Assembly: GCA_027078745.1 (NCBI GenBank)
Contig: JALWWO010000019.1
Coordinates: 1-64,000 of the forward strand
Reading direction: 5' to 3'
Source: Chromatiaceae bacterium
GTDB taxonomy: Bacteria > Pseudomonadota > Gammaproteobacteria > Chromatiales > Chromatiaceae
Length of the DNA: 64,000 nucleotides
In this document: piece by piece, positions 12,176 to 53,408 of the stretch
Position numbering within the stretch: the first letter of the stretch is position 1
How the letters are laid out: every line of letters begins with the position of its first letter
Position numbers and translations under genes: made by a program
Notes under the pieces: model-generated
What the model saw: only the letters and a program-made list of their open reading frames with translations
What the model was told of the DNA's origin: nothing
Database searches by the model: none

Positions 12176-12179
12176 GACC

Positions 12180-13479: not shown

Positions 13480-15167
<1,688 letters not shown>

Positions 15168-15204
15168 TGAATGATTGCCCCACAGCACAGGAAACGAAAT
15201 CCTT

Positions 15205-15627: not shown

Positions 15628-15637
15628 ATCCTCCTCG

Positions 15638-16114: not shown

Positions 16115-16509
16115 ATCCAAGGATGCAAGAGGGTTTTTCCCTGCTGGAAGTGCTGGTCGCCTTCTCCATTCTCGCCCTGAGCCTGGGCATTCTGATCCAG
16201 ATCTTTTCCCGAGCCATGACGGCTACCGCCCTGAGCGGTGCCTACCAGCGGGCCATCACCTTGGCAGAAAACAAGCTCAGCTCGGTAGGACTGGAGATTC
16301 CGTTGGAGCTCAGCACGGAATCAGGAGAAACAGAGGACGGCTTCTTTTGGCAGGTGGTGATTGAGGATTATCCCCTGCCGGATACGAGCTGGGAAACCGC
16401 TTCATCCCTCTACGAGATCCGCGCACAGGTTTCCTGGAAGACGGCGGAAGGCACTCGTCAGGTCGTCCTGCGCAGTCTGCGCCTCGTCCCCAAATCCGAA
16501 TCCCCATGA
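16111..16509 (+). CDS. gspI: GspI, minor pseudopilin
   Basis: 132 residues. Cleavage site MQEG|FSLLEVLVAFSILAL, followed by the family segment AYQRAITLAENKLSSVGLE. The GTG at 16111 has a good GGAAGA ribosome-binding site and overlaps the gspH stop; ATG 16123 would give a shorter but workable leader. GspI nucleates the pseudopilus tip with GspJ and GspK. Confidence 0.9.
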   Translation: MNPRMQEGFSLLEVLVAFSILALSLGILIQIFSRAMTATALSGAYQRAITLAENKLSSVGLEIPLELSTESGETEDGFFWQVVIEDYPLPDTSWETASSLYEIRAQVSWKTAEGTRQVVLRSLRLVPKSESP

Positions 16510-17270
16510 ACCGACCAACAGCCAAGGGCTTCACTCTAGTGGAGCTGCTCATTGCCTTCGCCCTCATCGGTCTCATGGCTCTCTTGCTCTTTTCTGGTCT
16601 CCGATTGGGGATGCGCGCCTGGGAAGGGGTGGATGCCTTGATCGCCCGAGAGGCGGAACAGCGGATCACCCGCAATCTGATCCAGCGCCTCTTGCTACAG
16701 GCAAGACCCATCCGCCTGACCTGGGAAGCGAAATCCGTGCTTCTGTTCTCCGGTGATGCAGAACATCTGGAATTCGTCGCCCCCCTGTCGGACCATGTGG
16801 GCATTCCCGGGCTCTATATCCTGCGCTTTGGCCTGGCAGAGGAGCAGGGACTGTTGCTGACCCGCTGGCTGCTGCATCCCGATGTGTTAGCGGGTACGGA
16901 TGAGATTCCCGCATGGGAACCCTTTGAAGAAGGAGATTCGTTCCCGGCCTTTCCCGAGGAAGATCAGGATCTCGCCGAAGGTGCTTTCGGCATGACTCGC
17001 TTGGTGGAAAAGCTGACGAGCTTTGAAATCGCTTATTTCGGCCCAGCTGAGCAGGCCTTGAATCCCAAGGAAGATCCTGCGGTGGGAACATGGCAGGAAA
17101 CATGGCTGGATCGCAAGGAACCACCCTATGCGGTCCGCATCCATCTGGAAACTCCCGGCAGCGCTTGGCCGGATCTCATCGTCCGCCTCCCGGAATCCGA
17201 GGAGAGGCGCTTGGGGAACGGCTTGACGATCGGTCCCGGCCCAGGCCAGGTTCCCTTCACAACCCGTTGA
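16506..17270 (+). CDS. gspJ: GspJ, minor pseudopilin
   Basis: 254 residues. Cleavage site AKG|FTLVELLIAFALIGL. The C-terminal part shows the usual GspJ pattern of an acidic middle and ends with an RLPESEERR...GPGP tail. Part of the IJK tip complex. It overlaps gspI by 4 bp. Confidence 0.88.
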   Translation: MNRPTAKGFTLVELLIAFALIGLMALLLFSGLRLGMRAWEGVDALIAREAEQRITRNLIQRLLLQARPIRLTWEAKSVLLFSGDAEHLEFVAPLSDHVGIPGLYILRFGLAEEQGLLLTRWLLHPDVLAGTDEIPAWEPFEEGDSFPAFPEEDQDLAEGAFGMTRLVEKLTSFEIAYFGPAEQALNPKEDPAVGTWQETWLDRKEPPYAVRIHLETPGSAWPDLIVRLPESEERRLGNGLTIGPGPGQVPFTTR

Positions 17271-37247: not shown

Positions 37248-38291
37248 ATGCCCCCTCGGAGCAGACTTTTAATCGTCGATGATTCCCCTTTCATGCGTCG
37301 AGCCATCGCGAATCTATTTTCGGATGACCCCAGCATCGAGATCGTGGGTGAAGCAGCCAACGGGCTGGAAGCCCTGAAGGCGGTGGAGCAGCTCAATCCT
37401 CAGGTCCTCACCCTAGATATCAACATGCCTATCATGGACGGACTGACAGCCCTCAAGCACCTGATGATTCGTTCCCCTCGTCCCACGCTGATGGTCAGCA
37501 CGCTCACCAAGGAAGGTTCCGCCATTACTTTCGACGCCCTGCGCTATGGTGCAGTGGACTTCGTGACCAAGCCCTCCAATCTGCCCGGCGAAGATCTAGA
37601 AAGACAGCGACAAGAGATCCGCCACAAGGTGCACCTGGCTGCTGCCATGCAAGTTTCCGCCATTCAGTACATTCGGGCCGTGCCTAAGCAGAAAAGAATC
37701 AGCCGAGAGACGCCCCAACGGGTGGTACTCTTGGGAGCTGCTGAGGGAGGTTATCACGCGCTCCTACGTATCCTGCCGCAATTGCGGGCAGACTTCACCT
37801 CCCAAACCGCCTACTTCGTCATGCTCTATGCAGAACCGGAGCACGTGCGCGCTTTTGCCCGCTATTTGGATCGCTACACAGCGGTTCAAGTGGTGGACGC
37901 TCAGGACGGGCAGACAGTGGAAAGCGGGGTTTGCTATCTCAGCTCTGGGGAGCACTATGTCACTTTCCTGCCGGAATCTGGTGGAGGGCTTCGGTTGCAT
38001 GTGACACCTGCGCCCTTTCCCTGGCGGCGGGGTTCTATCAACCGCTTGTTGTTCTCAGCAGCGGAGGTGCTCGGTGCCCGGGCGATCGCCCTGTTGCTCA
38101 CAGGTTCGGGAGAAGACGGAGCGGAGGGGTTGGTGGAGATCGCCTATGCGGGGGGTATTGTCCTGCTCCAGGATCCGGAAACCTGCTTCGACAAGGAAAT
38201 GGTGCAAAATGCGCTCTCTCTGGGAGAACCCAATTGGCTCGTCGTGCCCTGTGCAGATCTGGCAGCAACGATCAACGATTTGGTGGAATAA
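37248..38291 (+). CDS. CheB-like response regulator, methylesterase domain lacking catalytic Ser and His
   Basis: 347 residues. REC domain (1-125) with phospho-acceptor Asp57 in VLTLDINMPIMDGL, then a CheB-type C-terminal domain (about 160-345). Of the catalytic triad only the Asp survives (LLTGSGEDGAEG). The nucleophile region, normally GASTGG, reads GAAEGG. The histidine region, normally QHMPPxFTxSFA, reads LYAEPEHVRAFA. It therefore should not demethylate or deamidate receptors and may act as a phosphorylation-controlled binding protein. It is 109 bp before the PhnD-like gene and is the first gene of the chemosensory region. Confidence 0.85.
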   Translation: MPPRSRLLIVDDSPFMRRAIANLFSDDPSIEIVGEAANGLEALKAVEQLNPQVLTLDINMPIMDGLTALKHLMIRSPRPTLMVSTLTKEGSAITFDALRYGAVDFVTKPSNLPGEDLERQRQEIRHKVHLAAAMQVSAIQYIRAVPKQKRISRETPQRVVLLGAAEGGYHALLRILPQLRADFTSQTAYFVMLYAEPEHVRAFARYLDRYTAVQVVDAQDGQTVESGVCYLSSGEHYVTFLPESGGGLRLHVTPAPFPWRRGSINRLLFSAAEVLGARAIALLLTGSGEDGAEGLVEIAYAGGIVLLQDPETCFDKEMVQNALSLGEPNWLVVPCADLAATINDLVE

Positions 38292-38400
38292 CGGCGATTT
38301 TCACCCCCATGCACCAATCGGTGGAATAACCGCTATATTTTCCAAAGAAAGCGCGTGCTATGAAAGATGAATTTTCCCCGCCAACTGAAAGGAGAGTTCT

Positions 38401-39324
38401 ATGAAGAAGGGTCTATCGCTATTTCTCTTTTTGCTCGGTGCCTTATCCCTCTTTCTCTTTTTACTCAGCATGTTGTTGATCGTGCCCACGCAGGCCTCCG
38501 ACGAGATCCGCATCGGAGTGCTCGCTAAGCGAGGGGCGGCACGGACCCATCTTCGTTGGCTCGGCCATAGCTTGTTCCTGGAGCCGAAGATCGGGAAAAA
38601 GGTGGTCTTCGTACCCCTGAGTTTCATCCAAGTAGATCACGCTGCCGAGCAAAAAAGAGTGGATTTCTTCTTCGTCAACTCCTCTATGTTCATTGATCTC
38701 CAGGATAAGTATGGCGCAGAGGCTATCGCTACTGTGGTGAATCAAGGGCCATTCGGTAGAAAGACCACCCAGTTCGGGGGCGTCATCATCGCAAATGCCC
38801 AATCACCGGAGATCCAGACGTTGGAAGATGTGCGGGGCCGGCCGTTCTATGCGGTGAAGGAAACTTCCCTAGGAGGGTATCAGGCCGCGTTCAAGGAATT
38901 CCTAGATCATGGCATCGACTTGCCCAGAGAGGTGCAGGAACTGGCTTTTCGGGGCACTCATGATGCAGTGGTGCGGGTGGTGGGTGCACGTCCCGGTAGC
39001 TTGGGCACAGTGCGCACAGATATCTTGGAAAGGATGAAGCGAGAAGGAAAGCTCTTGGGTGGGCTGGTGAAAGTCATCAATCAGCGGCAGGAAGAAGAGA
39101 ACTTCCCCTTTCTTTTGAGCACTGCGCTCTACCCAGAATGGCCCATGGCGAAGATGCCTTGGACGAACCCTCAGGATGCAGACGCTCTGGCAAAGGCTCT
39201 GATGGAAATTCCTAGCAACAGCCTCGCTGCCCGCACGGCAGGAATCGCCGGTTGGGCAGCACCCGAACGCTATGATTCCGTGCGTCTGCTGCGCCAGGCT
39301 CTGCGCAACTATACAAAGCGTTGA
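38401..39324 (+). CDS. PhnD-type periplasmic substrate-binding protein
   Basis: 307 residues. Long hydrophobic N-terminus (about 4-30) ending at PTQA|SDEIRIGVLAKRG, a signal peptide or anchor. The rest is the PhnD-like fold (phosphate/phosphite/phosphonate binding family) with KRVDFFFVNSSMF and VRGRPFYAVKETSLGGY. No ABC permease is beside it. Such orphan binding proteins are often the sensing part of signalling systems, and here it sits inside a chemosensory block, so it may present a ligand to the MCP or a kinase. The ligand is unknown. It has an AAAGGAG site and a terminator right after. Confidence 0.8.
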   Translation: MKKGLSLFLFLLGALSLFLFLLSMLLIVPTQASDEIRIGVLAKRGAARTHLRWLGHSLFLEPKIGKKVVFVPLSFIQVDHAAEQKRVDFFFVNSSMFIDLQDKYGAEAIATVVNQGPFGRKTTQFGGVIIANAQSPEIQTLEDVRGRPFYAVKETSLGGYQAAFKEFLDHGIDLPREVQELAFRGTHDAVVRVVGARPGSLGTVRTDILERMKREGKLLGGLVKVINQRQEEENFPFLLSTALYPEWPMAKMPWTNPQDADALAKALMEIPSNSLAARTAGIAGWAAPERYDSVRLLRQALRNYTKR

Positions 39325-39335
39325 TCTCTACCTCC

Positions 39336-39362
39336 CCCCGCTGCAAAGCGGGGCGTCTTTTC
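39336..39362 (+). terminator. Terminator of the PhnD-like gene
   Basis: A 7-bp GC-rich stem CCCCGCT/AGCGGGG with loop GCAA, then CGTCTTTT. It lies 12 bp after the stop and directly before the end of the convergent CZB gene. Confidence 0.8.
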
Positions 39363-39365
39363 AGT

Positions 39366-39734
39366 TCAGTGCAGCCGATTGCCTAAAGCGTCCAAAAGGG
39401 CCATCAGCTCACCGGAATGCGCTTTGAGCTCTTCATATACCGCCCAAGCTTCCTTTGGTTTCCCTGATTGATAGAGCTCGATGATCCGATAGACGCGATC
39501 GTGGAACCGTTGGTGTTCTTGCTCCAACGCGCGCATTTCCGGAAACTCGCTATAGGTCGCCAGCCCCCCCCCGTACAGCCACTTTCCCAGATCGCAATCT
39601 CGATGGGAGATCGCTACGGGGACTTTTCCCCCGTTGAGGAAGGTGATGAGCTTATTCTTCCACATCTCGTGCCGCATTTTGATGAGGGGCAAGTTTAGGC
39701 TCTGTATGGTTGTTCGGCTCGCTTGCGTTGTCAT
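39366..39734 (-). CDS. Stand-alone CZB (chemoreceptor zinc-binding) domain protein
   Basis: 122 residues. It carries the CZB pattern: a first helix with MRHEMWKNKL, the core HRDCDLGKWLYGGG (His and Cys zinc ligands), and a third helix EQEHQRFHDRVY supplying two more His. CZB domains bind Zn with His3Cys and are usually fused to chemoreceptors or diguanylate cyclases, sensing zinc or oxidants such as HOCl. A free-standing copy next to chemosensory genes suggests a diffusible sensor. ATG 39734 is preferred since AGGAGG lies 7 nt before it. It is the only minus-strand gene in this block. Confidence 0.82.
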   Translation of the reverse strand: MTTQASRTTIQSLNLPLIKMRHEMWKNKLITFLNGGKVPVAISHRDCDLGKWLYGGGLATYSEFPEMRALEQEHQRFHDRVYRIIELYQSGKPKEAWAVYEELKAHSGELMALLDALGNRLH

Positions 39735-39740
39735 AGTCAT

Positions 39741-40257
39741 ACCTCCTGCGGCTTCCTTTCCGAAATACTGCTCGACGCGTTCCTTCGCCCATGGGTCGAA
39801 AACCCATATCCTTAGAATGACACTCGGTCTTTCTCCTGAACATGAAAAATGTCAATCGATTTGGGGAAAATAGGGAAGCATCAACTATGGCTGCAGCCGG
39901 AGCCTCTGCGCTCTCCGTGAAGACCTTTCGCTTTGCAGGGGGTACCTTGGCTCCTCGGAGGAAGTTCCATGGTAAGCTATCTGTGCGCCGTCGGGCAGGC
40001 GGAAATGCAAGGATAACCGATGCAGCAGGAACCGATGACCCGATGTGCGATGGATCGGCCGGTCGGAATCTCGGATGAGGAGGCCGTCAAGCTACGCAGC
40101 GTCGGACAAGGGCTGCAGGAACCGGCAGGCAACCAGCCAGTTCCTCTCTATCCGCTCTAGAAGGGCAGGGGCGTTGGGCTTTTAATAACCTGCGCCCCAT
40201 GCAGGAAGCGGATTGGGCAATGGGTTGTTTCAAAGAAATCCCGAGGAGGGAGTACAA
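39741..40257. other. About 500 bp without a confident gene before the MCP
   Basis: It holds the promoter region of the CZB gene and presumably of the che operon. A small candidate frame lies at 40020-40160, preceded by a 15-codon frame at 39969-40016 that has a strong GGAGGAAG site. No riboswitch was recognised. Confidence 0.5.
40020..40160 (+). CDS. Candidate small ORF (46 residues) in the MCP leader
   Basis: Starts MQQEPMTRCAM, has an AAGG site 7 nt before the ATG, and ends PVPLYPL. It lies in the same frame as a 15-codon ORF (39969-40016), from which it is separated by a single TAA and one codon. No family is recognised and the codon use is not decisive. It could be a leader peptide, a broken gene or chance. 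Confidence 0.2.
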   Translation: MQQEPMTRCAMDRPVGISDEEAVKLRSVGQGLQEPAGNQPVPLYPL

Positions 40258-43200
40258 GTGATCGCATGGTTTCAGAATCTCAGTCTCCGCTACAAATTGT
40301 TATGGGTCTTCCTGTTGGTAGGATTGGTCCCCTTCAGCATCCTGGGCTACCTGGCCATCAACGCCACTGAGTTGGCCCTCAAGGACCAGATCTTCCAGCA
40401 GCTGCGTTCTGTGAACGAACTCAAACGAGATCATTTGATCAGCTTGATGCGCAGCATCCATCAGGATATGGCGAGGCTGCGGGATTTCATCAAGCGGGTG
40501 GAAAATGCGGAGTTTGAGAAGCTCAGCGTTACAGAGAGTCTTAAAGCGGCCCAGCTCGAAGAGTATTTCCGCACCCGCTTCTCCATCATGAGCGACGTGC
40601 AGCAAAACTTGCGTTTCACCGATGGCTTGCCGCTCTTCATCGCCGCCTTTGATCGAGGGTTGGACAGCCCAGAATACAACCTGTTGCTCCAGGAACGGGA
40701 AGAAGGCTTGCTGACTTTCGCGGAGCAGTTTCATTTCACCGATATCCTGTTTATTTCCTCAAAGGGAGACATCGTCTACACCCTGGCGAAGAATGAGGAT
40801 CTGGGACAAAACCTGCTCGACGGCCCCCTGAACAATTCGAACCTCGCCCGTTTGTTCGCCAAGGCCCGCGGAAAAATCGCTGTCGAGGACTATTCTTGGT
40901 ACGAGCCGGCCAGTAGCTACACAGCCTTTATCGGTACCCCCATCAAGGATGCTAGCGGCAACTTCCAGGGGATCATTGCCTTTTCACTCAATCCCGATGA
41001 CATCAACGCCATCGTGCAGCAGCGGGAAGGTTTGGGTAAGAAGACGGAATCCTATTTGGTAGGCCGCTACCAGGGAAAGACCAGTCTTCGCAGTGATCGC
41101 ATTGTGAAAGTGGGTAAGATCGGCGACCCCAAGACCGGTCCGGACATCGAAGCTGCCCTCGACGGCAAATCCGGGCATATGATCAAGATCGGCTCTACCG
41201 GTGAATATGAGTTGTCTTCCTATCGGCCGTTGAATCTCCCCGCCGGGCTGAACTGGGTGATGATCACTACCGGTTCTGTGGAGGAGTTGCTGACCACCAG
41301 CGGCTTAGAGGCGAACGCCAAAGAGAATCAGGACTTGCTTCAGCAACATGCGGAAAGCTATGGCTATCCGGATTTCTACCTCGTCAGCCCGAGCGGATTC
41401 GTGTTCTACAGCACCCAGAAGCGGGCTGATTATCATACGAACCTCCTTAAAGGACAGTTCCGCTCCACAAACTTAGGGCAAGTGGTGAGCCGCGCCCTCG
41501 AGCAAAGATCCTTTGCTTTGTCTGACGTGGCAAGATATGCCCCGAATGACAACAAGCCCAGTGCCTTTGCAGCGGTGCCCGTGTTAAGTCAGCAAGGCCA
41601 GGTAGAAATGATCGTCGCCGCTCAAGTCCCTCTGTCTAAGATCAATGAGATCATGCTGGCCCGAACGGGACTAGGGGAAACCGGTGAGACCTATCTGGTA
41701 GGAGAGGATTTCCTCATGCGCTCAAATTCCCGCTTTAAAACGGAATCCTCCATCCTCTCCCTCAGGGTAGATACGCCCTCTTCCCGTCAGGCCTTCGAGG
41801 GAAAAACAGGTGTGGGCATCATTGAGGATTATCGCGGCGTCTCTGTGCTAAGTGCTTATGTGCCCTTAGGTCTGAAGGAAGCTTTGGGTACAGACTTCGA
41901 TTGGGCGGTGATCGCGGAAATCGATACTGCGGAAGCTCTGACGCCGATCACAGATTTCCAGAAAAACATGGCGATCCTCGCCCTGGTGATCCTCGTCTTG
42001 GTCGTCGGCGTCGCTCTACTGGTAGCCAATGGCATCGCGCTGCCTATCTTGCGCATCGCAGGCACCGTGCGTCAGATCGCAGAAACTCGCGACCTCACCT
42101 TGCAAGTGCCCGTTTCCTCTCAGGATGAGATCGGCAGCATGGCAGCTGTGCTCAACGAAATGCTGTTGAGCATTCACGATACCTTCAGGGATGTGCGCCA
42201 TGTGGCCCAGAAAGTGGCAGCGGGTGCCCGGGATATGGCAGATCGCGCTACAGCGAATCGGCAGCGGGCCGAAGAAGAAGTGAAGGTTTCCGCAGAAGCG
42301 GCACAGATCATTCAGCTGATGGGAGAGACCGCTGCCAAGGTAGCCCAAGCAGCGGAATCTCAGCGAGAGGCCGCAGCGGCTTCCAACGAGACAGTGGAAA
42401 ACATGGTGCAGATCATGACCTCTGTGGGAGATACGGCCACGGCCCAAACTCGTGAAGTAGATGAGACCCTCAACCGCGTGGCAGAGATGGGGGACACGGG
42501 CGCTAAGGTGGTGGCTACTGCCCAGAAGCAAGGGGAAATGGTGGTTCAGGTCTCCGCCTCTGTGAACGAGATGACCCAAGCGGTGGACGAGATGAACCAG
42601 GCAGTCGCCCAAGCCACGGAACAGGGCCGGTTAGCCCTGGCCGCTGCTGAAGAGGGCCGGCGCGCCGTGGGGTCTACGGTGGAGGGCATGCGGGCCATCG
42701 CCGAATCTTCCGAACAGATTTCCGAGATCATCGACGTGATCACGGAAATCGCTGAGCAGACCAACTTGCTCGCCCTGAACGCTGCCATCGAGGCTGCCCG
42801 CGCCGGCGCCCACGGAAAGGGCTTTGCGGTGGTTGCCGACGAAGTGGGCAAGCTGGCTCAACGATCCTCTGAAGCTGCCAAGCAGATCACCCAGCTCATC
42901 AAGGATTCCAGCAGTCGGGTGGCGGAAGGAACCAAGCTCACGGACGAATCCCAGAAAGCGCTCATCCGAATTGATGAAGGTGGCCGTGCCAACATCCAGG
43001 CCATCGAGTCCATCGCCCGCACGGCGAGCGCTATCGCCGACAGCACTCAACAGGTGCACGGCCTGATGACGGAGCTCAACCGGTTGGCCCAGGAAATCGC
43101 GGGCATGGCTGGCCAGCAGGGTGCCCGCCGAGAAGCAGCGGAAAAAGCCCTGCAAACCATGGTGCAGCTCACCGGTCGCATCACCGAGCTGCTCATGGAT

Positions 43201-43449
43201 GCGAACCATCAGACGGGCGAAATTGGAGAACGGATGCATCTAATTCTGGATCGGGTCGTGGAGATGAACGAGCTCACCGATGCCCAGAAAGAACGTTCCC
43301 GTCGGGTGCGGGCCATCGCGGAGGCAACCTTGGAAGGTGCCAAGGCAACTGCCGAACGCGCCGGTGTTGTGGTGGAAATCACGGGAGATTTGCAGCGCCT
43401 TTCCGACAACCTCCTGAAGGACGTGGAACAGTTCAAGATCGCGGAGTAA
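40258..43449 (+). CDS. Methyl-accepting chemotaxis protein with a duplicated Cache sensor
   Basis: 1063 residues from a GTG at 40258 with a perfect GAGGAGGG site 7 nt upstream; an in-frame ATG at 40213 lacks comparable support. Membrane helices at about 13-35 and 574-598 flank a very large periplasmic region of about 540 residues. This contains two related Cache-like units: [17 protein letters not shown]...[14 protein letters not shown], repeated as [17 protein letters not shown]...[19 protein letters not shown] domain (600-655) and the MCP signalling domain follow, with the tip [26 protein letters not shown]. No CheR-docking pentapeptide is at the C-terminus (ends VEQFKIAE). Confidence 0.92.
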
Positions 43450-43452
43450 CTA

Positions 43453-43478
43453 CAGGGCGCCCCCGTTCGGGGGCCCTG
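43453..43478 (+). other. Strong hairpin between the MCP gene and cheW
   Basis: CAGGGC-G-CCCCCGTTCGGGGG-CCCTG folds into a GC-rich stem of about 10 bp with one bulge. It lies 3 bp after the MCP stop and 20 bp before cheW, with no T run. It may block 3' exonucleases and so set different mRNA levels for the MCP and downstream che genes. Confidence 0.55.
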
Positions 43479-43498
43479 ACAACCCCTCGGAGAGCAAG

Positions 43499-44047
43499 AT
43501 GACAGAGTACTATGCGACGGAACGGGCCGAGCAGGAGGAAAAAGAACGCTTGATGCAGCTCGTCGGCTTCATCTTAGGCGGCGAACTGTTCGGGGTCGAC
43601 ATCCTCATGGTGCAGGAGATCATCCGTTCCACCGAGATCACCCATGTGCCCAATGCGCCGGATTTCGTGGAAGGGGTCATCAACCTGCGGGGCAATATCA
43701 TCCCTGTCATCGACCTGCGCAAGCGCTTGAATATGGCAGGAGAGATGCCCGTGCAAGAAAAGGATTGGATTTTGATTCTGAACATCGAGGGACGGACCAC
43801 GGGCTTTATCGTGGATCAGGTGACAGAGGTACTCAAGATCGAGGAAGCGGAGATCGAACCCCCACCGGAAATCATCGTTTCTGGGCTGGAAAGTCAATAT
43901 ATTCTCGGGGTTTGCGATATCGGCGAACAACTCCTGATCTTGCTCGATTTCAACCGCATCCTGATGGTGGAGGAGATCCGGAAGCTCAAAGAGGTGGATG
44001 TGGGTGCGAGAAATACCCCCGCTGCATCAAAGTCAGTGCCGGATTAA
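43499..44047 (+). CDS. cheW: CheW-type coupling protein
   Basis: 182 residues, single CheW domain (about 18-155) with QLVGFILGGELFGVDILMVQEI and GVINLRGNIIPVIDLR. It bridges the MCP and CheA. The short acidic N-terminus and the C-terminal tail (about 25 residues) are extra. First gene after the MCP, followed 51 bp later by the CheY-like gene. Confidence 0.93.
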   Translation: MTEYYATERAEQEEKERLMQLVGFILGGELFGVDILMVQEIIRSTEITHVPNAPDFVEGVINLRGNIIPVIDLRKRLNMAGEMPVQEKDWILILNIEGRTTGFIVDQVTEVLKIEEAEIEPPPEIIVSGLESQYILGVCDIGEQLLILLDFNRILMVEEIRKLKEVDVGARNTPAASKSVPD

Positions 44048-44098
44048 AGGAATCGGTACTCATGAATGCAGGGCAGTACCGGCATGGAGAAAGTAAGG

Positions 44099-44458
44099 AT
44101 GGGGAAAAGAATTTTGATCGTCGATGATTCTTCCATGATGCGCAAGCTGATCAAGCGCGTGCTAGTCAACGGCGGTCATCAAGTGATCGGGGAAGCCAAA
44201 AACGGTGTAGAAGCCCTGGACCTGTACAAACAGCTTTCTCCAGATCTGGTCACTATGGATATCACCATGGCGGAGATGGATGGATTGACGGCAGCAGGAG
44301 CTATCCTGGCCTATGATCCAAATGCCCGCATTCTCTTTCTTTCCAATCGGGAGGGGGAAAAGTTTCGCGGTCAGGCGGCAGAACTCAGCGGTATCCGTCT
44401 GATCAATAAACATAAAACGGAAGAATTGCTGAGAGCGATCGAAACACTACCCCGCTGA
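44099..44458 (+). CDS. CheY-like single-domain response regulator
   Basis: 119 residues, REC domain only: ILIVDDSSMMRKLIKRVL, phospho-acceptor Asp in LVTMDITMAEMDGL, switch Ser in LFLSNREG and the lysine in INKHK. The usual Pro after the phospho-Asp (MP) is Ala here. The start at 44099 (MGKRILIVDD) has GGAG about 9 nt upstream; in-frame ATGs at 44066 and 44084 are less well placed. Probable output or phosphate sink of the CheA below it. Confidence 0.88.
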   Translation: MGKRILIVDDSSMMRKLIKRVLVNGGHQVIGEAKNGVEALDLYKQLSPDLVTMDITMAEMDGLTAAGAILAYDPNARILFLSNREGEKFRGQAAELSGIRLINKHKTEELLRAIETLPR

Positions 44459-44508
44459 GGATGGGGAGTTCGTCTCCAGGTGGTTAGGCCCTGATCGAGG
44501 ATGAAGAT

Positions 44509-47133
44509 ATGGCTGAAATCGATACCTCTTTGATTCCAGATTATGTGGCCGAAGCTGCCGAGCATCTGGAGGAAATGGAGTCCAGCCTGCTTGCGCTGGA
44601 GGATGATCCGGGAAACGGGGAGCTTCTGGCAAATCTCTTTCGATGCTTCCACACCATCAAGGGGGCGGCGCAGTTCGTCGGGCTGGAGAAAACTTCTGTG
44701 CTTGCCCATCGCGCAGAAGATCTGCTGGACCTGTTGCGAGAGGGAGAACGCCCGCTGACCCCTGGGATCTTTGAAGTGCTGATCCAGACCAAGGACCGGC
44801 TGGAGAGCCTGCTCCAAGAGCTGGACAACCACCAGCGGGAAGAATCGGAAGTGCAAGACCTGGTCACCCGTCTGAGCGCCTTCATCGAAGGGGGTGAACA
44901 AGGCGCTGCTACTGCATCGGAAGCGACGGCAGAAACCGCACAGGCAAGTCCTCCCGAAGCCGCTTCGACCACCGAAGTGGAAGAAACTGAAGCAGCAGAA
45001 GATTCCCCGGCGCTGCCATCTGCAGATTGGGACAAAGAAGAAGAATACGATGAGGAATTAGATCCAGAACTCTTCCACATCTTTCAAAACCAGCTCGTGG
45101 AGGAATTGGTCACGCTGCGAGGCCTGTTCGATCAACTCGTGCTATCAGAAACACCGACAGTCCTACTGGCCGATGCAGCAGAGATCTTGGAACGGCTGCG
45201 CTCTGCAGCTAATTACATGGACTATGAATCTCTCGTCCATCTCTATGACCAATGGTTGGACTCTCTAGAGCTTGAACAAGAAAAGGCGGTAGAAGGGGAA
45301 GAAATCGAGGTCGAGCGCCTGAAGGAGTATATCGAACGCATTTTAGAACGATTCCCCCAGCTCGCGGATCGTATGGAGGAAGTGAGCCGCATCCGAGAGG
45401 AAGCCATCACGACTCCTGTTCCACAGGAAGCCGCTGAGACGAAACCGGAAGCCAAGACGCCGGAACCTGTACAACCGGAACCCACACCCCAAGAGGAAGG
45501 CCCGCCACCCCGAGAGCCAGCACCAGAGGCATCGGCTGAACCCCCCTTAATGGATGCGTTCACCACCGCCTTAGCGGAATCCCTAGAAGAGACGCCCACG
45601 AACACTGCCGATCCGCTGGAAAGCGTGTTCGACGAAATGTTAGTCGGGGACTTGGAGGCGCTGGAATCCTCCAAAAAGACGACTGCAAAGCCCTCTGCCC
45701 CTTCCCGACGAGAAGAACAGGCAAAGGGATCTGCGCCGACCCAACCAGCGGAATTACCTCCGAGGCAACCAACAGCGCCCTCCTCGGAAACCGCTAAAAA
45801 AGCTAAGAAGACTACAGGAATAGAACGCGCACTCAAGCGGAGCGTGCGCGTGGATGCGGAAAAAATCGATACCCTCATGAATCAGGTGGGGGAACTGATC
45901 GTACACCGCTCTTACTTCAATCAGATCTTCAACGAAACTCGCAGCCTACAGCAGCGTTTTGAAGCAGCAGGCCTTCCCGCACACGAACTCAAAGCCTTTC
46001 GAGCCCTTTCCTATCGCTTTAGCGAAGCGATCGTATCTTTGTCCCGTACGGCAAATGAATTGCAAGAAGGGGTGATGAAAGTTCGAATGTTGCCCATCTC
46101 CCAACTCTTCAACCGCTATCCCCGCTTGGTGCACGATCTAGTGCGCAACACAGATAAGCGGGTGCGCATCGAGATGCGAGGGGAGGATACGGAATTGGAT
46201 AAGATGATTATCGAGGAAGTTTCCGATCCGCTGATCCATATCATCCGCAATGCGGTGGATCACGGCTTCGAGTCCGTGGAAGAACGGCGGCAACAGGGGA
46301 AACCGGAGATGGGCACCCTGTTGTTGGAGGCCTATCACGAGAGCAATCACATTGTCATCGAAGTGAGCGATGACGGGCGGGGCATTGATCCCGATCTGGT
46401 GCGGAGAAAGGCCCTGGAAAAGGGTCTGATCACTCCAGAAGAGCTTGCCCGAATGCAAGAGCGGGATATTCTGCGCCTCATCATGGCCCCTGGCTTTTCC
46501 ACTGCTCAGACAGTGACCGATACTTCCGGCCGGGGGGTGGGCATGGACGTAGTGCGGAAGAATGTGGAAAAGCTCAATGGCACCATCGAGATCGACAGTG
46601 AGCCGGGAAAGCGCACTCGCTTCCGTCTCAAAATTCCTCTAACGCTAGCCATCATCTCCGCTTTGCAAGTACGGGTAGGCAATCATCATTTCACGATCCC
46701 CCTCGCCAATGTGGAAGAAACCCTGCGCGTGTTCAAAACGCAAACCACTCAGATCGAGGGCATTGAAGTCATCCATCTTCGAGGGCGCACCATGCCTATT
46801 TTCCGCCTCTCCGCTCTGTTTCATTTAGAGGGGCAGGCCCAGCAGGAAGAAAAATTCTTTGTGGTGATTGTGAACACAGGCGGTGACCAGGTGGGGTTGG
46901 TGGTAGATGAGTTGCTGGGACAGGACGAGGTAGTCATCAAGCCCTTGGTGGACTATCTCCAGGAAGGCAGTGGCTTTTCCGGCGCGACGATCATCGGGGA
47001 CGGTCGGATCTCTCTGATTCTAGATGTCTATGAATTAGTGAAGATGACAGCACTGCGCCAGGCGCGCATCCATCAGGAACTGGCGAAACAGCGCCGCCAT
47101 CAGATCCATGCCAATCCTGCTTCTCTGCACTGA
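44509..47133 (+). CDS. cheA: CheA-type hybrid-less histidine kinase with an extra degenerate HPT domain
   Basis: 874 residues. HPT domain (1-115) with the phosphorylated His48 in CFHTIKGAAQFVG. A second helical domain (about 180-290) resembles an HPT but has no His at the matching place (ILERLRSAANYMDY). A long Pro/Glu-rich linker (290-430), the dimerisation helices (VDAEKIDTLMNQVGELIV), the ATPase domain with N box IIRNAVDHGFES, G1 DDGRGID and G2 GRGVGMD, and a C-terminal CheW domain. No P2 CheY-docking domain is recognisable, although the second helical domain may serve that role. No C-terminal REC domain. Confidence 0.92.
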   Translation: MAEIDTSLIPDYVAEAAEHLEEMESSLLALEDDPGNGELLANLFRCFHTIKGAAQFVGLEKTSVLAHRAEDLLDLLREGERPLTPGIFEVLIQTKDRLESLLQELDNHQREESEVQDLVTRLSAFIEGGEQGAATASEATAETAQASPPEAASTTEVEETEAAEDSPALPSADWDKEEEYDEELDPELFHIFQNQLVEELVTLRGLFDQLVLSETPTVLLADAAEILERLRSAANYMDYESLVHLYDQWLDSLELEQEKAVEGEEIEVERLKEYIERILERFPQLADRMEEVSRIREEAITTPVPQEAAETKPEAKTPEPVQPEPTPQEEGPPPREPAPEASAEPPLMDAFTTALAESLEETPTNTADPLESVFDEMLVGDLEALESSKKTTAKPSAPSRREEQAKGSAPTQPAELPPRQPTAPSSETAKKAKKTTGIERALKRSVRVDAEKIDTLMNQVGELIVHRSYFNQIFNETRSLQQRFEAAGLPAHELKAFRALSYRFSEAIVSLSRTANELQEGVMKVRMLPISQLFNRYPRLVHDLVRNTDKRVRIEMRGEDTELDKMIIEEVSDPLIHIIRNAVDHGFESVEERRQQGKPEMGTLLLEAYHESNHIVIEVSDDGRGIDPDLVRRKALEKGLITPEELARMQERDILRLIMAPGFSTAQTVTDTSGRGVGMDVVRKNVEKLNGTIEIDSEPGKRTRFRLKIPLTLAIISALQVRVGNHHFTIPLANVEETLRVFKTQTTQIEGIEVIHLRGRTMPIFRLSALFHLEGQAQQEEKFFVVIVNTGGDQVGLVVDELLGQDEVVIKPLVDYLQEGSGFSGATIIGDGRISLILDVYELVKMTALRQARIHQELAKQRRHQIHANPASLH

Positions 47134-47139
47134 GGGATT

Positions 47140-48252
47140 ATGAGCTTGGCATCTTCAGAAGGCAGGGGTACAGAAAAAGATCCCATCCGAGTGCTGGTGG
47201 TGGACGATGCCAACTTCATGGTGAAGGCAGTCCAAGAAATCCTTTCCGAAGATCCGGGCATTCAGGTGGTGGGCGCGGCCAGGAATGGCCAGGAAGCCCT
47301 GGAGATGATTGAAAAGCTGCATCCCGATGTCATCACCCTGGACATCGACATGCCGGTGATGGACGGATTGCGCACCGTGCGCCACCTCATGATCAAATCT
47401 CCCGTGCCCGTGGTGGTGCTCAGCTCTCTGTTTCGGGACGGTGCCATCACTTTTGAAGCCCTGCGGCTGGGGGTCGTGGACTTTCTCGCCAAGCCTTCGG
47501 GGGCGGTCTCCCAAGATATTCACCGCGCCAAGCAACAGTTGATTGACCGAGTGAAGATCGCTGCGGATGTACAGCTGGATCAAGTGCGGCGGGTTCGGCT
47601 GAGACCCTGGAATCTGGAGGAAGTGATCCAACAGCGCTATGGCTACCGCACGCTGGATTACCTCATCGCCATAGGAACCACACTGGGGGGACCCAACACC
47701 GTGATCCGCCTGTTCATGGATCTGCCGCCGGATCTCCCCGCTGCGGTGGTCCTAGTGCAGGAGATCTCCCCTCAAATCCTGCCGGCCTTTGTCAAGAAAT
47801 TCGACGAACACGTGCCCTGGCGCATGGAAGAAGCTAAGGATGGGGTCATTCTGGAAACGGGCTGTTGTTACATAGGTTCCACGGAAACCACAGTTACCAT
47901 CACCCTCAACAGCAATCGAGAACCCTGTCTAGCCGTGGGTCCCCAAAGTGAATTTCCTCTGAATCAACTCTTTTCTTCCGCCGCCCACATCTTTGGCAGC
48001 AATACCATCGGGCTTTTGCTCACTGGTCTGGGCAGCGATGGGGCAGACGGCTTCGCGGAAATTCAGCGTATGGGAGGTACCACCCTGGCGGAAGACGGGG
48101 ATTGCTGTGTCTATCCCAACCTGACGGAATATGCGGTTCGCGCCGGGGTGGTAACCCAGGTGGTCGAGGAAAGGCAGCTGAGCAACAAGATTCAAGCACT
48201 CATCCTCGGAAAGCCAAAGCAAGGGGGGGAAGCGGAGGATGCGGAAGAATGA
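47140..48252 (+). CDS. Second CheB-like response regulator with a dead methylesterase domain
   Basis: 370 residues. REC (about 15-135) with Asp68 in VITLDIDMPVMDGL; CheB-type domain (180-350). The nucleophile motif reads IGTTLGG instead of IGASTGG and the His motif reads VQEISPQILPAFV, with Glu in place of His. Only the Asp motif LLTGLGSDGADG is preserved. It shares this loss with the protein at 37248, suggesting both derive from one ancestor. It lies 6 bp after cheA and overlaps the ParA gene (ATGA), so it is translated with them. Confidence 0.86.
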   Translation: MSLASSEGRGTEKDPIRVLVVDDANFMVKAVQEILSEDPGIQVVGAARNGQEALEMIEKLHPDVITLDIDMPVMDGLRTVRHLMIKSPVPVVVLSSLFRDGAITFEALRLGVVDFLAKPSGAVSQDIHRAKQQLIDRVKIAADVQLDQVRRVRLRPWNLEEVIQQRYGYRTLDYLIAIGTTLGGPNTVIRLFMDLPPDLPAAVVLVQEISPQILPAFVKKFDEHVPWRMEEAKDGVILETGCCYIGSTETTVTITLNSNREPCLAVGPQSEFPLNQLFSSAAHIFGSNTIGLLLTGLGSDGADGFAEIQRMGGTTLAEDGDCCVYPNLTEYAVRAGVVTQVVEERQLSNKIQALILGKPKQGGEAEDAEE

Positions 48253-49166
48253 TTATCCAATGTCCCCATTGCCAGACGCGATTCCGGCTCGATGCTAGGC
48301 ATCTCGCGGACCGTCTGGCAATCCGAGTGCGCTGCGCGCGCTGTCATCAAATCTTCACGGTGACCGCCCCCTCATCGGAAGAAGCACCGCTGAAACTGGA
48401 ACCCGCCCAGGAGGTGCGGGATGCTCAAGTCATCAGTTTCAGCAACCAGAAAGGCGGCGTAGCCAAGACTACCAGTTGCTTATGCATGGCCGTTGCCTTA
48501 GCCCGCCGAGGCCGTCGGGTTCTGCTGGTGGATTTCGATACTCAGGCGAATTTGACCACCTTGTTGGGTCAAAGGAAGGTACGTTCCTTTTACGATCTCC
48601 TCAGCGCGGAAGAACCCATCCGCGCGGGCATTGTTCCAGTGCAGGATCATTTGGCCCTGCTGGGGGCGAACAGCCGGATGAATCTGTTACCCAAGCGCTA
48701 TCTGAACACCCAAAACTATGAGCAGCTCTTGCACAAAGCGTTGGGCACAGTCAAAGCGGATTATGACTATATTTTCATCGATACCCCCCCTTCCCTGAAA
48801 TTCTTTGCCCTCAATGGATTGGTGGCGGCGGATCTAGTCCTGATTCCCACCCAATGCGCGTTTCTCTCCTTGCAGGGCGTTTCTCAGATGGAACAGGTGA
48901 TTCAGTCCCTGCGCAAGCGTCTCGGCCGTCCTGCTCAGCATCGATTGCTCATCACCCTGTACGATGCCCAAAGCACCGCTTCCCAGGCAGTCTACCGCAC
49001 GTTGCGGGAGCGCTGGTCTGAGCAGATCTTAGAACCGGCCATTCCCCTGGATAATGCGGTGAGCGAAGCGCAAATCCTCCAACGTTTCCTTTTCGACTAC
49101 GCGCCGACGGGAAAGGCAGCTCGCGCTTATCTCGCCGCAGCTGAAGCGCTGGAGTCCCTGCTTTGA
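48249..49166 (+). CDS. ParA/MinD-type ATPase with an N-terminal zinc ribbon
   Basis: 305 residues. Residues 1-40 form a MJ0042-type zinc ribbon (C5xxC8 and C29xxC32). Next comes a ParA ATPase domain with deviant Walker A NQKGGVAKTT (about 66-75), VDFDTQANLT and the FIDTPPS motif. ParA-type proteins position chemosensory arrays (ParC) or plasmids. A zinc ribbon on the front is more usual in gliding or secretion regulators; here it could bind nucleic acid or protein. The start at 48249 overlaps the CheB-like stop and the stop overlaps the permease start. Its place right after the che genes supports a role in placing the array. Confidence 0.85.
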   Translation: MIIQCPHCQTRFRLDARHLADRLAIRVRCARCHQIFTVTAPSSEEAPLKLEPAQEVRDAQVISFSNQKGGVAKTTSCLCMAVALARRGRRVLLVDFDTQANLTTLLGQRKVRSFYDLLSAEEPIRAGIVPVQDHLALLGANSRMNLLPKRYLNTQNYEQLLHKALGTVKADYDYIFIDTPPSLKFFALNGLVAADLVLIPTQCAFLSLQGVSQMEQVIQSLRKRLGRPAQHRLLITLYDAQSTASQAVYRTLRERWSEQILEPAIPLDNAVSEAQILQRFLFDYAPTGKAARAYLAAAEALESLL

Positions 49167-49921
49167 AAAGGGAATCCCTGTGGATGTCCACCATTGCTTT
49201 CGGTGGACTGCTCGCCTTCTGGGAACTCTCCATCGAGCTGGGGCAATGGGATGAACAAGTTCTCCCCAGTCCCCTGGAAGTGCTGAAAAGCCTGTGGGAA
49301 TTAACCGAGAACGGCACCCTGCTGCGCCATTCGGTGGCAAGCCTGTTTCGGGTGACCGCAGGCTTCTATCTGGCGGTGCTCTTCGGCATTCCCCTGGGTA
49401 TCTTCATCGGTCGCGTGAGAAAGGCGCGGTTGCTCCTCAATCCCCTGATTCAGTTCCTGCGGCCCATCTCCCCCTTGGCCTGGATTCCCCTCGCCATGCT
49501 CTGGTTCGGCATCGGCGATGCGCCAGCAGTCTTCCTCATCTTTTTGTCCAGTTTTTTTCCTTTGGTCGTCTCCACCTCTGTGGCGGTCTCTTCTATTAAT
49601 CCCATCTATTTTCAAGTGGCAGCTAACTTCGATTTCAGCCGCTGGGAAGTCATCAGCAAGATCATCATTCCAGCCATCCTGCCCGATGTGATCACCGCAT
49701 TGCGCATCTCCGTTTCCGTTGCCTGGCTGGTGGTGGTGGCGGCAGAAATGATCGCCGTGCAGTCCGGGTTGGGCTATCTCATCTTGGATTCCCGCAATGC
49801 CCTCCGCATGGATTATGTGATGGTGGGTATGATCATGATCGGCCTCATCGGGTTATTTCTCGACATGATGATGCGCCGCCTTTCCTATACCGAGGCTTCA
49901 GCCTGGGCTCGCCATCATTAG
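49163..49921 (+). CDS. ABC transporter permease (NrtB/SsuC/TauC type)
   Basis: 252 residues, about six membrane helices. The EAA-like cytoplasmic loop reads AANFDFSRWEVISKIIIPAILPDVITALR. Typical of permeases for nitrate, sulfonates or thiamine-precursor-like compounds. A TTG start overlapping the ParA stop is used; ATG 49184 is the alternative. Substrate cannot be deduced. Confidence 0.87.
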   Translation: MKRESLWMSTIAFGGLLAFWELSIELGQWDEQVLPSPLEVLKSLWELTENGTLLRHSVASLFRVTAGFYLAVLFGIPLGIFIGRVRKARLLLNPLIQFLRPISPLAWIPLAMLWFGIGDAPAVFLIFLSSFFPLVVSTSVAVSSINPIYFQVAANFDFSRWEVISKIIIPAILPDVITALRISVSVAWLVVVAAEMIAVQSGLGYLILDSRNALRMDYVMVGMIMIGLIGLFLDMMMRRLSYTEASAWARHH

Positions 49922-49953: not shown

Positions 49954-50745
49954 ATGAGTCAGATTGAGATTCAGCATCTTTATAAATCCTACCGGAACCG
50001 GAGGCATCACCGGAGGGGACCGAATGACTACGACCCTGGAGAAGAGATTCCTGTCCTGGAGGATGTGAATCTATGTGTTGAAAACGGGGAAATGGTCTGC
50101 ATTCTTGGTCCTTCTGGCTGTGGGAAGTCCACTTTGTTGCGCATGGTCGCCGGATTTGATCGCCAGACTTCCGGGGAAATCCTCATCGACGGGCAGCCCG
50201 TCACTGGCCCGACTTCGGATAACATTTTCGTGTTCCAGCAAAGCGGCCTGCTGCCTTGGATGACGGTCTGGCAGAACGTGGAACTCGGGCTGCGCCGTCT
50301 GACGGATCAGGCAGAGAAGACAGAACGCATTCAGGAGGCCATCAGTCTTGTGGATTTGGAAGGGGCAGAAACGCTCTACCCGCATCAGCTCTCCGGCGGT
50401 ATGAAACGGCGGGCAGAATTGGCGCGGGCACTGGTGGTGAATCCCAAGATTCTCATCATGGATGAGCCCTTCACTGGACTGGACTTCTTCACCCATCTGC
50501 GGATGCGGGAAGAAGTGGTCAACATGCACGAGTTTATCCGAAAGACCACTCTGATCGTCACTCATGACATCGATGATGCCCTGCTCATGGGGGATCGAAT
50601 CGTTGTCATGAGCGGCCGGCCCAGTCATGTCAAACTGGAAAAAGTGTTGGATTTTCCCCACCCACGCAATCTGGCGAAGCACCCTGAATTGAACAGCCTG
50701 CGGGAGGAAATTTTCTTCATGTTAGGGGTGAGCGATGCGGTTTAA
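49954..50745 (+). CDS. ABC transporter ATPase (NrtD/SsuB/TauB type)
   Basis: 263 residues. Walker A GPSGCGKST, Q-loop FQQSGLLPW, signature LSGGMKRRAELARAL (with an unusual K for Q) and Walker B ILIMDEPFTGLD. The end overlaps the start of the binding-protein gene by 11 bp. Confidence 0.93.
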   Translation: MSQIEIQHLYKSYRNRRHHRRGPNDYDPGEEIPVLEDVNLCVENGEMVCILGPSGCGKSTLLRMVAGFDRQTSGEILIDGQPVTGPTSDNIFVFQQSGLLPWMTVWQNVELGLRRLTDQAEKTERIQEAISLVDLEGAETLYPHQLSGGMKRRAELARALVVNPKILIMDEPFTGLDFFTHLRMREEVVNMHEFIRKTTLIVTHDIDDALLMGDRIVVMSGRPSHVKLEKVLDFPHPRNLAKHPELNSLREEIFFMLGVSDAV

Positions 50746-51763
50746 CCCTCGTGCGCTCATCGAAAAACCTCTGTGGCGGGTATTGAGCCTTTCCCTGGCC
50801 TGGCTGTTCCTGATTTCCGGACTGCACTATTGGTTGAATTACGATCACAGCCAGCGACGGATCATCAAGATGGGCTATATGCCGGTGATCACCAACCTTT
50901 CCGCCCCTATCTTGGATGCGGTGAGCGCTGAGGGGAATGGCGTTCGCTTCAAGGCCATCAAGTTTTCCTCCTTTGCAGAAATGGCGGAATCCCTGCGGAA
51001 CGATCATATCGAGGTGGCCTTCATCATCGCTCCCCTCTCCATCGTGCTGCGTCAGCAGGGCGAAGATGTGAAAGTAGTCTACATCGGCAACCGCCACGAG
51101 AGCACCATGGTAGTGCGTGCAGGCCTCGGTATCAAAACCCTGGCAGATCTGGCAGGGCACAAGGTCGCGGTGCCCATGCGCTATTCGGGACACAACATCG
51201 CCCTTCGGGGGCTGTTAGCCAAAGAGGGGTTGGAAGACCAGGTTTCCATTGTGGAGATGAATCCACCGGATATGGCAGCCGCCTTGGCGACAGGTGGACT
51301 GGATGCCTATTTTGTGGGAGAACCCTTTGCCGCTAAAACTTTGCAGACAGGTCAATCTGAACTCTTTTTCTATGTGGAAAAGATCTGGCCCAATTTCATC
51401 TGCAACCTAGTGATCGTGAAGCAATCGCTCATCGAGCGAGAGCCGGAAACGGTAGCAGCCTTTGTGGAGGGGGCGGCGCGGGCAGGGATCTGGGCCAGGG
51501 ATCATGTAGATGAAGCTGCCGAAATCGCGGCGAAATACTGGAACCAACCCGTGGATCTGGTGAAATATGCCATGACCAACCCGCCAGACCGCATTGTCTA
51601 TGATAGGTTTGTGCCCAAGGCAGAGGAACTGGGAGAAATGGCGCGGCGGATGGTCCAATACGGTCTTTCCGAGCATGCGGACATCGCGGGACTCATCGAA
51701 GATCGCTTTGCCAAGGGAGCAGATATTCAGGCGGTCAGGGATCGCAGTCAGATCCTACGGTAA
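50735..51763 (+). CDS. Membrane-anchored ABC substrate-binding protein (NMT1/NrtA-like)
   Basis: 342 residues. A cytoplasmic N-terminus of about 12 residues with a basic cluster, one hydrophobic segment (about 16-33), no lipobox and no clear signal-peptidase site, then the binding domain: IKMGYMPVITNLSAPIL, IEVAFIIAPLSIVLRQ, and MAAALATGGLDAYFVGEPFAA. It completes the transporter. An uncleaved anchor would keep it at the inner membrane near the permease or a receptor. The ligand (a sulfonate, nitrate-like anion or pyrimidine) is not decided by sequence. Confidence 0.85.
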   Translation: MRFNPRALIEKPLWRVLSLSLAWLFLISGLHYWLNYDHSQRRIIKMGYMPVITNLSAPILDAVSAEGNGVRFKAIKFSSFAEMAESLRNDHIEVAFIIAPLSIVLRQQGEDVKVVYIGNRHESTMVVRAGLGIKTLADLAGHKVAVPMRYSGHNIALRGLLAKEGLEDQVSIVEMNPPDMAAALATGGLDAYFVGEPFAAKTLQTGQSELFFYVEKIWPNFICNLVIVKQSLIEREPETVAAFVEGAARAGIWARDHVDEAAEIAAKYWNQPVDLVKYAMTNPPDRIVYDRFVPKAEELGEMARRMVQYGLSEHADIAGLIEDRFAKGADIQAVRDRSQILR

Positions 51764-51782
51764 TCAGAACATAAGCATCGCC

Positions 51783-53408
51783 ATGCCACAGCAACAGCCC
51801 GCCGTTTCGCTTGCCTCAATCATTTCCCAGTTGCAAGAATTTTGTAAGCATCAGCGCAATGGGATCTTGCAGATTTTGACGCCGGAAGGCAAGCAGGCGG
51901 AATTCCATCTGCGAAAGGGTACGATCGTTGCCCTTCGCTATGAAGATCTAGAAGGCATCGAAGCCCTGGTGCCCATCTCCGAGATTGCAGAAGGTTGGGT
52001 TCGTTTCCAAGAATCAGAAGTCAAAGGGTTTGGTCATGCTGCGCTTCCGCCTACGCCGGATCTGCTCTTTCTCTTGGGGGGACCGCTGGAACAGAACGAT
52101 GACGCCCCCTCCACTTTCTATGCGCCGGGGGAATGGACGCTGGAACGACTCCGAGCGGAAGCGGGGCGACTGCTACCTCGGCGGGATATCGTGGATATGC
52201 TGTATTTCGGGCACCGCAGCGAACTGTCCGCGGTGATCTTCCTGGTCACCACGGATCGGGAATGGTATGAATTTATCTTTAAAGGCGGAAACATCGTGGA
52301 TGTGGTGTCTCAGACAGCGGTTGGGTTTGAAGCAGTCTGGGCCTTCCGTCAGGTGCAGACCGCCAAGTATGGGATTCGCCTTCGGCGCTGTTCGAAACCC
52401 ACAGATTACAGCCACCGCCCGCCTCTGCCGACAACAAAGGAATTGCTGCATTTTCTGGAATCCCCAGAACAAATGCGCACAGCGACTCCTCCGGAGACCA
52501 CTGCTTCTTTTCCCGAAACCCCTTCCCTTCCCGAGGAGAAAGTTCTCTCTACGGACCAGAATGAGCCGGAAGTTCTGTCCAATTCCCCCGCGCCATCAGC
52601 CTCTTCTGCAGTCGCCCCCCAAAAAGCGGAGAGTGCTGTCGGAAACACCGGTTATCGAGAATTTCGACCCATGGTGGAAATTCTCCGGCACCTCCACAAG
52701 CTCTGTACGGAACATCAGACAGGCATCATGATTGTGGTTCGAGCAGACCGCCGGGGCCTGCTGGAATTTTTCCTGGATCAGGGCCGCATCTACGACATCG
52801 TTTGCCGTCGCCAGCATGGTCGAAAAGCCCTAGAGCTTGCTAAGGAAGTTACCGGCGGGCGCTATTCCTTCACCCCGCGGGATCATTTGCCCCGCCGCCA
52901 GATTCCGGAGGATCTTCCCACGAATGAAGAGATTCTTTATCAATTGGGATTGCCTTTGGAGGACCTGGGAATCAAACAGCAAACTCAATCCGAGCAGACC
53001 GCCGAAACGAAGGTGCAGCCCGCCCCTCCGCCCGGAAGGAAAATCCAAATTTTGGTAGTAGATGATAGCACCCTGACCCGAAAGGTAGTTGCTAAGTCTC
53101 TGTCAGAACAAGGCTATGAGGTCGTTGAGGCGGAAGACGGGGAAAGAGCAGTGGCCCGCATTCAAGACCATCCGCCTGATCTAGTTGTCTTGGATCTCAT
53201 CATGCCGGGCATCGATGGTTACGGCGTATTGAACTTCATCCGCAATCACAGCCGCCCTGAAATTCGGGAGATCCCCGTCATCCTATTGACCTCTCGGGAC
53301 AAACTCTTCAATCGAATTCGGGGAAAAATGGCCGGTTCTAACGAATACCTCACCAAGCCCTTCAAAGCAGATGAGCTGCTGAGCAAAATCCGAAAATATG
53401 TTCATTGA
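51783..53408 (+). CDS. PatA/PixG-like protein: DUF4388-type domains plus C-terminal REC
   Basis: 541 residues from ATG 51783; an upstream frame start lies in the ABC gene. Residues about 8-95 and 300-400 are DUF4388-like domains (NGILQILTPEGKQAEFHLRKG and TGIMIVVRADRRGLLEFFLDQ); the segment between (about 135-235) looks like a third, diverged copy. A Ser/Pro/Glu-rich linker precedes them. The C-terminal REC (about 420-541) has LVVDDST, phospho-acceptor Asp in VVLDLIMPGIDGY and lysine in LTKPFK. Such PatA/PixG-type regulators control motility, pili or heterocysts. Probable output of the CheA above. Confidence 0.82.
   Translation: MPQQQPAVSLASIISQLQEFCKHQRNGILQILTPEGKQAEFHLRKGTIVALRYEDLEGIEALVPISEIAEGWVRFQESEVKGFGHAALPPTPDLLFLLGGPLEQNDDAPSTFYAPGEWTLERLRAEAGRLLPRRDIVDMLYFGHRSELSAVIFLVTTDREWYEFIFKGGNIVDVVSQTAVGFEAVWAFRQVQTAKYGIRLRRCSKPTDYSHRPPLPTTKELLHFLESPEQMRTATPPETTASFPETPSLPEEKVLSTDQNEPEVLSNSPAPSASSAVAPQKAESAVGNTGYREFRPMVEILRHLHKLCTEHQTGIMIVVRADRRGLLEFFLDQGRIYDIVCRRQHGRKALELAKEVTGGRYSFTPRDHLPRRQIPEDLPTNEEILYQLGLPLEDLGIKQQTQSEQTAETKVQPAPPPGRKIQILVVDDSTLTRKVVAKSLSEQGYEVVEAEDGERAVARIQDHPPDLVVLDLIMPGIDGYGVLNFIRNHSRPEIREIPVILLTSRDKLFNRIRGKMAGSNEYLTKPFKADELLSKIRKYVH

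Follow-up and report, generated by a model that had tools for sequence, protein, structure and literature searches.

A conserved chemosensory module carries CheB-like proteins without a complete catalytic triad and may signal without receptor methylation

Introduction

CheB, whose REC domain is ordinarily phosphorylated by CheA, forms with CheR the enzyme pair that gives chemosensory systems memory. PMC3447774 describes CheR as a core enzyme shared by all functional families. Here we analysed a window of 64,000 nucleotides from a Chromatiaceae bacterium (GCA_027078745.1, contig JALWWO010000019.1, positions 1 to 64,000), in which one chemosensory block encodes two CheB-like proteins, CheB1 and CheB2. 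An initial annotation, made from the sequence alone, had claimed that the catalytic Ser and His are gone from both proteins and that the block has no cheR. The question raised by this locus is what two CheB proteins can do when neither looks able to act as a methylesterase.

Results

CheB1 (37248-38291) and CheB2 (47140-48252) each consist of a REC and a CheB_methylest domain (Pfam) and, like all the genes of the block except one, lie on the + strand. Between them are encoded a PhnD-like periplasmic binding protein similar to the sensor part of TtrS (38401-39324; Pfam PF12974 and NCBIfam), a CZB (chemoreceptor zinc-binding) domain protein (39366-39740, - strand; PF13682), an MCP with dCache, HAMP and MCP signalling domains (40213-43449), CheW (43499-44047; PF01584), a CheY-like single REC protein (44066-44458; PF00072) and a CheA with Hpt, dimerisation, ATPase and CheW-like domains (44509-47133). 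CheB2 is followed by a ParA/MinD-type ATPase with an N-terminal zinc ribbon (48243-49166; PF13614, PF13717), an ABC transporter permease (49163-49921; PF00528), an ABC transporter ATPase (49954-50745; PF00005), an NMT1-like substrate-binding protein (50735-51763; PF13379) and a response regulator (51759-53408) with the DUF4388 (PF14332) and REC (PF00072) domains of PATAN-type response regulators, DUF4388 corresponding to the PATAN domain. Start codons are uncertain for the MCP, the CheY-like protein and the DUF4388 regulator.

Both CheB proteins matched PF01339 (E-values of 1e-33 for CheB1 and 8.7e-37 for CheB2). HMMER alignment to the solved CheBs 6ymz and 1a2o placed GAAEGG, LYAEP and GSGEDG of CheB1, and GTTLGG, QEISP and GLGSDG of CheB2, on the Ser, His and Asp motifs, respectively. 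The triad of 6ymz is given as S165-H191-D287 in PMC7698151; the triad positions are A165/Y194/D290 in CheB1 and T181/E208/D300 in CheB2. The catalytic Ser is thus replaced by Ala in CheB1 and by Thr in CheB2, the catalytic His by Tyr and Glu, respectively, and the Asp is kept in both. The open reading frames are real, and the alignment agrees with the claimed loss of Ser and His as well as with the further claim that the Asp motif and the REC phospho-Asp (D57 in CheB1, D68 in CheB2) are intact. When both proteins were compared with CheB structures, a check that the initial annotation had proposed, the predicted models kept the full CheB shape, REC plus CheB fold: the CheB1 model (pLDDT 92.8) matched full-length CheB 1a2o with a Z of 39.0 over 335 residues and the CheB2 model (pLDDT 85.4) with a Z of 36.4 over 333 residues. 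Hence, the domains and fold of a CheB methylesterase are present in both proteins and the Ser-His-Asp triad is absent from both. They also missed the cut-offs of the two NCBIfam CheB models scored, one protein (P0001) with 249.4 against a cut-off of 293 and 223.7 against 342, and the other protein (P0002) with 270.9 and 231.3. These results confirm the initial observation in a stronger form than was first stated.

A scan with the CheB2 pair returned at least 80 public loci, and among the matches listed 35 carry a close CheB2 relative (52-65% identity). In these loci a common module could be recognized, formed by a PATAN-type regulator, CheB1, MCP, CheW, CheY, CheA, CheB2, ParA and an ABC transporter. 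Gene order resembled that of the window in the listed loci with room for the gene in question, namely for CheA (31/33), CheY (27/27), CheW (23/24), MCP (19/22), CheB1 (16/16), ABC permease (29/32) and binding protein (22/27), and ParA adjoined CheB2 in 29 of the 34 listed loci with enough downstream sequence. The DUF4388 regulator lies directly upstream of CheB1 in most of the other module loci whose sequence extends to this point. The PhnD-like and CZB genes found between CheB1 and the MCP of the window (38401-39740) are unlike the arrangement of the other module loci, and their gene orders showed no relative of the PhnD-like protein at the equivalent position. The carriers are mostly Gammaproteobacteria and Desulfobacterota, and include Methylococcales, Competibacter, Desulfobacterales, cable bacteria (Electronema, Electrothrix), Polarisedimenticolaceae and a 'Synechococcaceae' MAG whose taxon label is doubtful. 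Within the class of the window genome, a CheB2 orthologue at E<=1e-100 was present in only 5 of 369 sampled genomes, the window's included, all with E-values near 1e-170, so the module is rare. Three loci found later (L134-L136) repeated, as read by eye, the gene order and the dead motifs of CheB1 and CheB2, and gave no CheR match; a fourth (L133) probably comes from the same genome as L055. In the Competibacter phosphatis locus (L075), CheB2 (10029-11054) and CheA (7469-9872) are each split in two open reading frames by a frameshift or a sequence error.

No complete triad was found in any of 36 CheB2 or 22 CheB1 sequences. Left out of these sets were L043, which duplicates L047, in both families, the fused form L058 in CheB1 and the split L075 protein in CheB2; some CheB1 rows end at contig ends. 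At the Ser position, CheB1 has Ala in 18 sequences, His in two and Ser in two, followed in 22/22 by Glu in place of Thr; at the His position it has Tyr in 20 and His in two, and Asp is present in all 22. Four further CheB1s from genomes without a CheR match read GYD, GYD, AYD and GYD at the triad positions. In CheB2, the Ser position is occupied by Thr (22), Ser (10) or Asn (4), the His position by Glu (34) or Asp (2), and the Asp is present in all 36. Because T181 of the window protein still has a hydroxyl group, and Ser occupies the equivalent position in 10 of 36 orthologues, the invariant change of the CheB2 family is that of His to Glu or Asp. Identical losses in all the orthologues examined are more than would be expected by chance, and the same block with the same breakage in distant relatives points to preserved non-enzymes and not to gene decay.

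Ordinary CheBs behaved differently in the same analysis. The control CheBs of relatives, taken as best-scoring matches, had a full triad in 30/30 rows (28 distinct, L037 being a repeat of L007 and L040 of L022), as did the 34/34 CheBs of other loci from the CheB2-pair scan. Of eight CheBs of relatives with low scores, six had the full triad, one (L152) was without the Asp and one (L155) without all three residues; thus, a low CheB score alone is no proof of a dead triad, and CheBs can be dead outside the module too. L155, a weak CheB match on contig C22 of genome G045, belongs to a relative without this module at the genome-sample search.

Sedolisins use a Ser-Glu-Asp triad, and the residues of CheB2 could in principle form a rewired enzyme in which Thr/Ser, Glu/Asp and Asp catalyse another reaction with Glu replacing His. 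The counts fit such a site (T/S in 32/36, E/D in 36/36 and D in 36/36), but Asn stands at the nucleophile position in four of the 36, the Met beside the Asp motif, conserved in 95% of canonical CheBs, is mostly replaced, and CheB1 has mostly Ala at the Ser position. We consider a new catalytic activity distinctly improbable.

The residues of REC phosphorylation have been kept. In the REC domain of CheB2, D, D, D, S and K are conserved in 36/36 sequences, and CheB1 retains the phospho-Asp in 20/20 sequences where the position is present and the Lys in 20/21. This full conservation, together with the presence of up to three extra REC-bearing CheBs beside one CheA, would also be expected if the CheBs acted only through REC as phosphate sinks, draining phosphate from CheA and shaping the CheY response while their C-domains stayed passive. 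Drift would be expected of a passive C-domain, but the fold is intact and family-specific residues are conserved in the old active site: among the positions at which CheB1 or CheB2 is fixed for a non-canonical residue are the His, the one that follows Ser, and those in loops 262-264 and 315-319 (CheB1 numbering). A role confined to the REC domain is on this evidence unlikely, although it deserves more weight than a new catalytic activity.

We then turn to the methyltransferase. No CheR was located in the block, as had been claimed, and the genome-wide search that the initial annotation had called for gave the same answer. In the window genome (2.18 Mb, 97.17% complete), neither Pfam PF01739 nor a profile built from eight CheR sequences, the latter at E<=1, returned a CheR match; the same profile gave five matches in genome G002 and one in G081 as positive controls. 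The PF01339 search of this genome found no CheB domain beyond those of the two dead window CheBs. The genome encodes three MCPs and gave three CheA dimerisation matches, one of them below the cut-off. As judged by eye, the gene order of its second chemosensory cluster (L130, contig C18) is Pil-Chp-like; alongside two REC proteins the cluster encodes CheW-like proteins, one MCP and one CheA, and Pfam searches showed neither CheR nor CheB nearby. The CheA of this cluster is split over two overlapping open reading frames (10040-16659). A third chemosensory locus (L131, contig C5, 969-9945) encodes, besides a hybrid CheA and an MCP, a periplasmic binding protein and several CheW-like proteins.

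CheR matches were likewise absent from all 35 listed module loci (555,258 bases) and from ten distant loci with three CheBs, as compared with their presence in 20 of 30 short canonical-CheB loci and in 29 of 35 other ordinary-CheB loci. Six module genomes, which may be incomplete, gave no CheR match at all. Four of these (G069, G072, G074 and G089) have just two CheBs, a dead CheB1 and a dead CheB2, and a fifth (G078) has a dead CheB2 as its single CheB; the sixth (G076) nevertheless has an extra CheB with an intact triad (L147, contig C59). The remaining 29 of the 35 module genomes encode a CheR elsewhere, which could in principle act in trans, and several module genomes have ordinary-scoring CheBs. 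The proposal that the block signals without ordinary methylation adaptation is therefore strongly supported for the window genome, with no CheR found, no intact triad and conserved losses; for the module at large, the CheRs encoded elsewhere count against it. The same CheRs, and a window genome in which 97.17% completeness leaves room for an overlooked CheR gene, lend something to the view that the CheBs are decaying relics of a lost methylation system, or that CheR is supplied in trans or from the missing part of the genome. Against it stand the intact open reading frames, the substitutions conserved across phyla and the six other module genomes that are also without a CheR match, and we judge it highly improbable, the least probable of the explanations considered.

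The CheR-docking pentapeptide of MCPs carries a Trp. The window MCP ends in ...DVEQFKIAE, without a Trp-bearing pentapeptide, so that its C-terminal residues agree with the claim that it lacks this motif. A strict consensus methylation motif was present in 5/24 module MCPs, scattered among them, versus 5/11 control MCPs, the two sets being of different receptor classes, and some conserved Glu/Gln pairs persist in module MCPs.

Dead CheBs extend beyond the two families. Desulfobacterota loci carry a third one, CheB3, and a complete triad was found in 0/13 CheB3 proteins and in 0/26 proteins of the three-CheB loci, with columns taken from a MAFFT alignment of distant sequences. In a quick, unrooted tree, CheB1 (19 rows), CheB2 (30) and canonical CheB (42) each formed one side of a branch (support 99, 99 and 97), the Desulfobacterota CheB3 grouped with the third CheB of the distant three-CheB loci (99), and the first CheB of those loci was placed beside CheB2 (91). 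DUF4388 was fused to a dead CheB in 3/3 CheB3 proteins tested (Pfam). A third degenerate CheB with DUF4388 and REC was seen at L071 16417-17808, L078 12157-13644 and L074 8153-9922. Between CheY and CheA, two Desulfobacterota loci encode a small membrane-type protein (L071 5633-6298 and L074 4651-5340), the L071 copy with a HAMP domain.

As regards the output, FlhA was not detected in any of the 17 module genomes searched, among them that of the window. In the same 17 genomes the PilT family gave a match in all and a match above its cut-off in 16; the pilT model also matched 13 of 14 control genomes with scores under the cut-off. PMC7690835 describes cyanobacterial PATAN-REC regulators acting on type IV pili, with PixE reported to bind PilB1. 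Together with the DUF4388 regulator of the module, these observations suggest that pilus-driven surface movement is probably the output. Genes for an MglA-like GTPase and a Roadblock protein adjoin 8 of the 10 three-CheB loci, the remaining two having short upstream sequence, and MglA-like genes were found in 0/35 listed module loci at E 1e-5; the link to polarity is therefore confined to the distant three-CheB loci. An example of the MglA-like/Roadblock genes lies at L078 7398-8413 (- strand), in a locus with three degenerate CheBs, CheY and CheA.

Discussion

We favour, at a probability of roughly 60%, the reading that this conserved chemosensory module works without receptor methylation and that its dead CheBs are phospho-gated feedback or output proteins. 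CheA would phosphorylate the REC domains of CheB1 and CheB2, and phosphorylation would open the interface between REC and C-domain, exposing the face of the old active site as a binding surface. The two proteins may then bind a partner, which could be the receptor bundle, CheA, ParA or a motility regulator, instead of cutting methyl esters, and in the bound state would exert feedback or serve as output under the control of phosphorylation. Their target would probably be the surface-motility machinery (type IV pili, polarity), reached by way of the PATAN-type regulator; for the distant three-CheB loci the route to motility might run through the MglA-like and Roadblock proteins. Both the conservation of the REC residues and the changes at the former active site fit the idea, and from them we infer that the CheB folds have been kept as phospho-switched binding proteins, as the initial annotation had suggested.

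P. aeruginosa Pil-Chp carries PilK (CheR) and ChpB (CheB). The module resembles Pil-Chp systems in its non-flagellated, pilus-bearing hosts, and a Pil-Chp-like gene order occurs in the second cluster of the window genome, but the module has its own CheA, pseudo-CheBs, ParA and ABC transporter. Compared with the CheB methylesterase/deamidase (6ymz, 1a2o), the window CheBs share the REC, linker and C-domain, the phospho-Asp and the catalytic Asp, and differ in having lost Ser and His, in falling below both NCBIfam CheB cut-offs and in coming from a genome where no CheR was found. Like cyanobacterial PixG, PixE and LsiR, the module places DUF4388 and REC proteins in a chemosensory locus, except that here a degenerate CheB accompanies DUF4388 or, in Desulfobacterota, is fused to it. 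Chemosensory genes next to an MglA-like GTPase and Roadblock, as in the polarity control of Myxococcus by Frz and MglA-MglB, were seen only in the distant three-CheB loci mentioned above and not in the 35 listed module loci. Among open-licence full texts, our searches yielded no paper that deals with inactive CheB families or with DUF4388 alongside CheB.

More tentatively, and with less confidence than in the favoured reading, the module may represent an ancient, undescribed class of chemosensory system in which two or three pseudo-CheBs replace methylation by phospho-gated binding, leading to methylation-free adaptation or to control of polarity in type IV pilus movement, with Thr/Ser-Glu-Asp of CheB2 perhaps forming a new active site. 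A dead-CheB module spread over large phylogenetic distances, with several genomes that gave no CheR match, amounts to a natural experiment in which what the CheB fold contributes to signalling is set apart from its chemistry, and in which methylation-free adaptation can be put directly to the test. Cable bacteria and methanotrophs are among the carriers of the module, which therefore bears on how non-flagellated bacteria steer.
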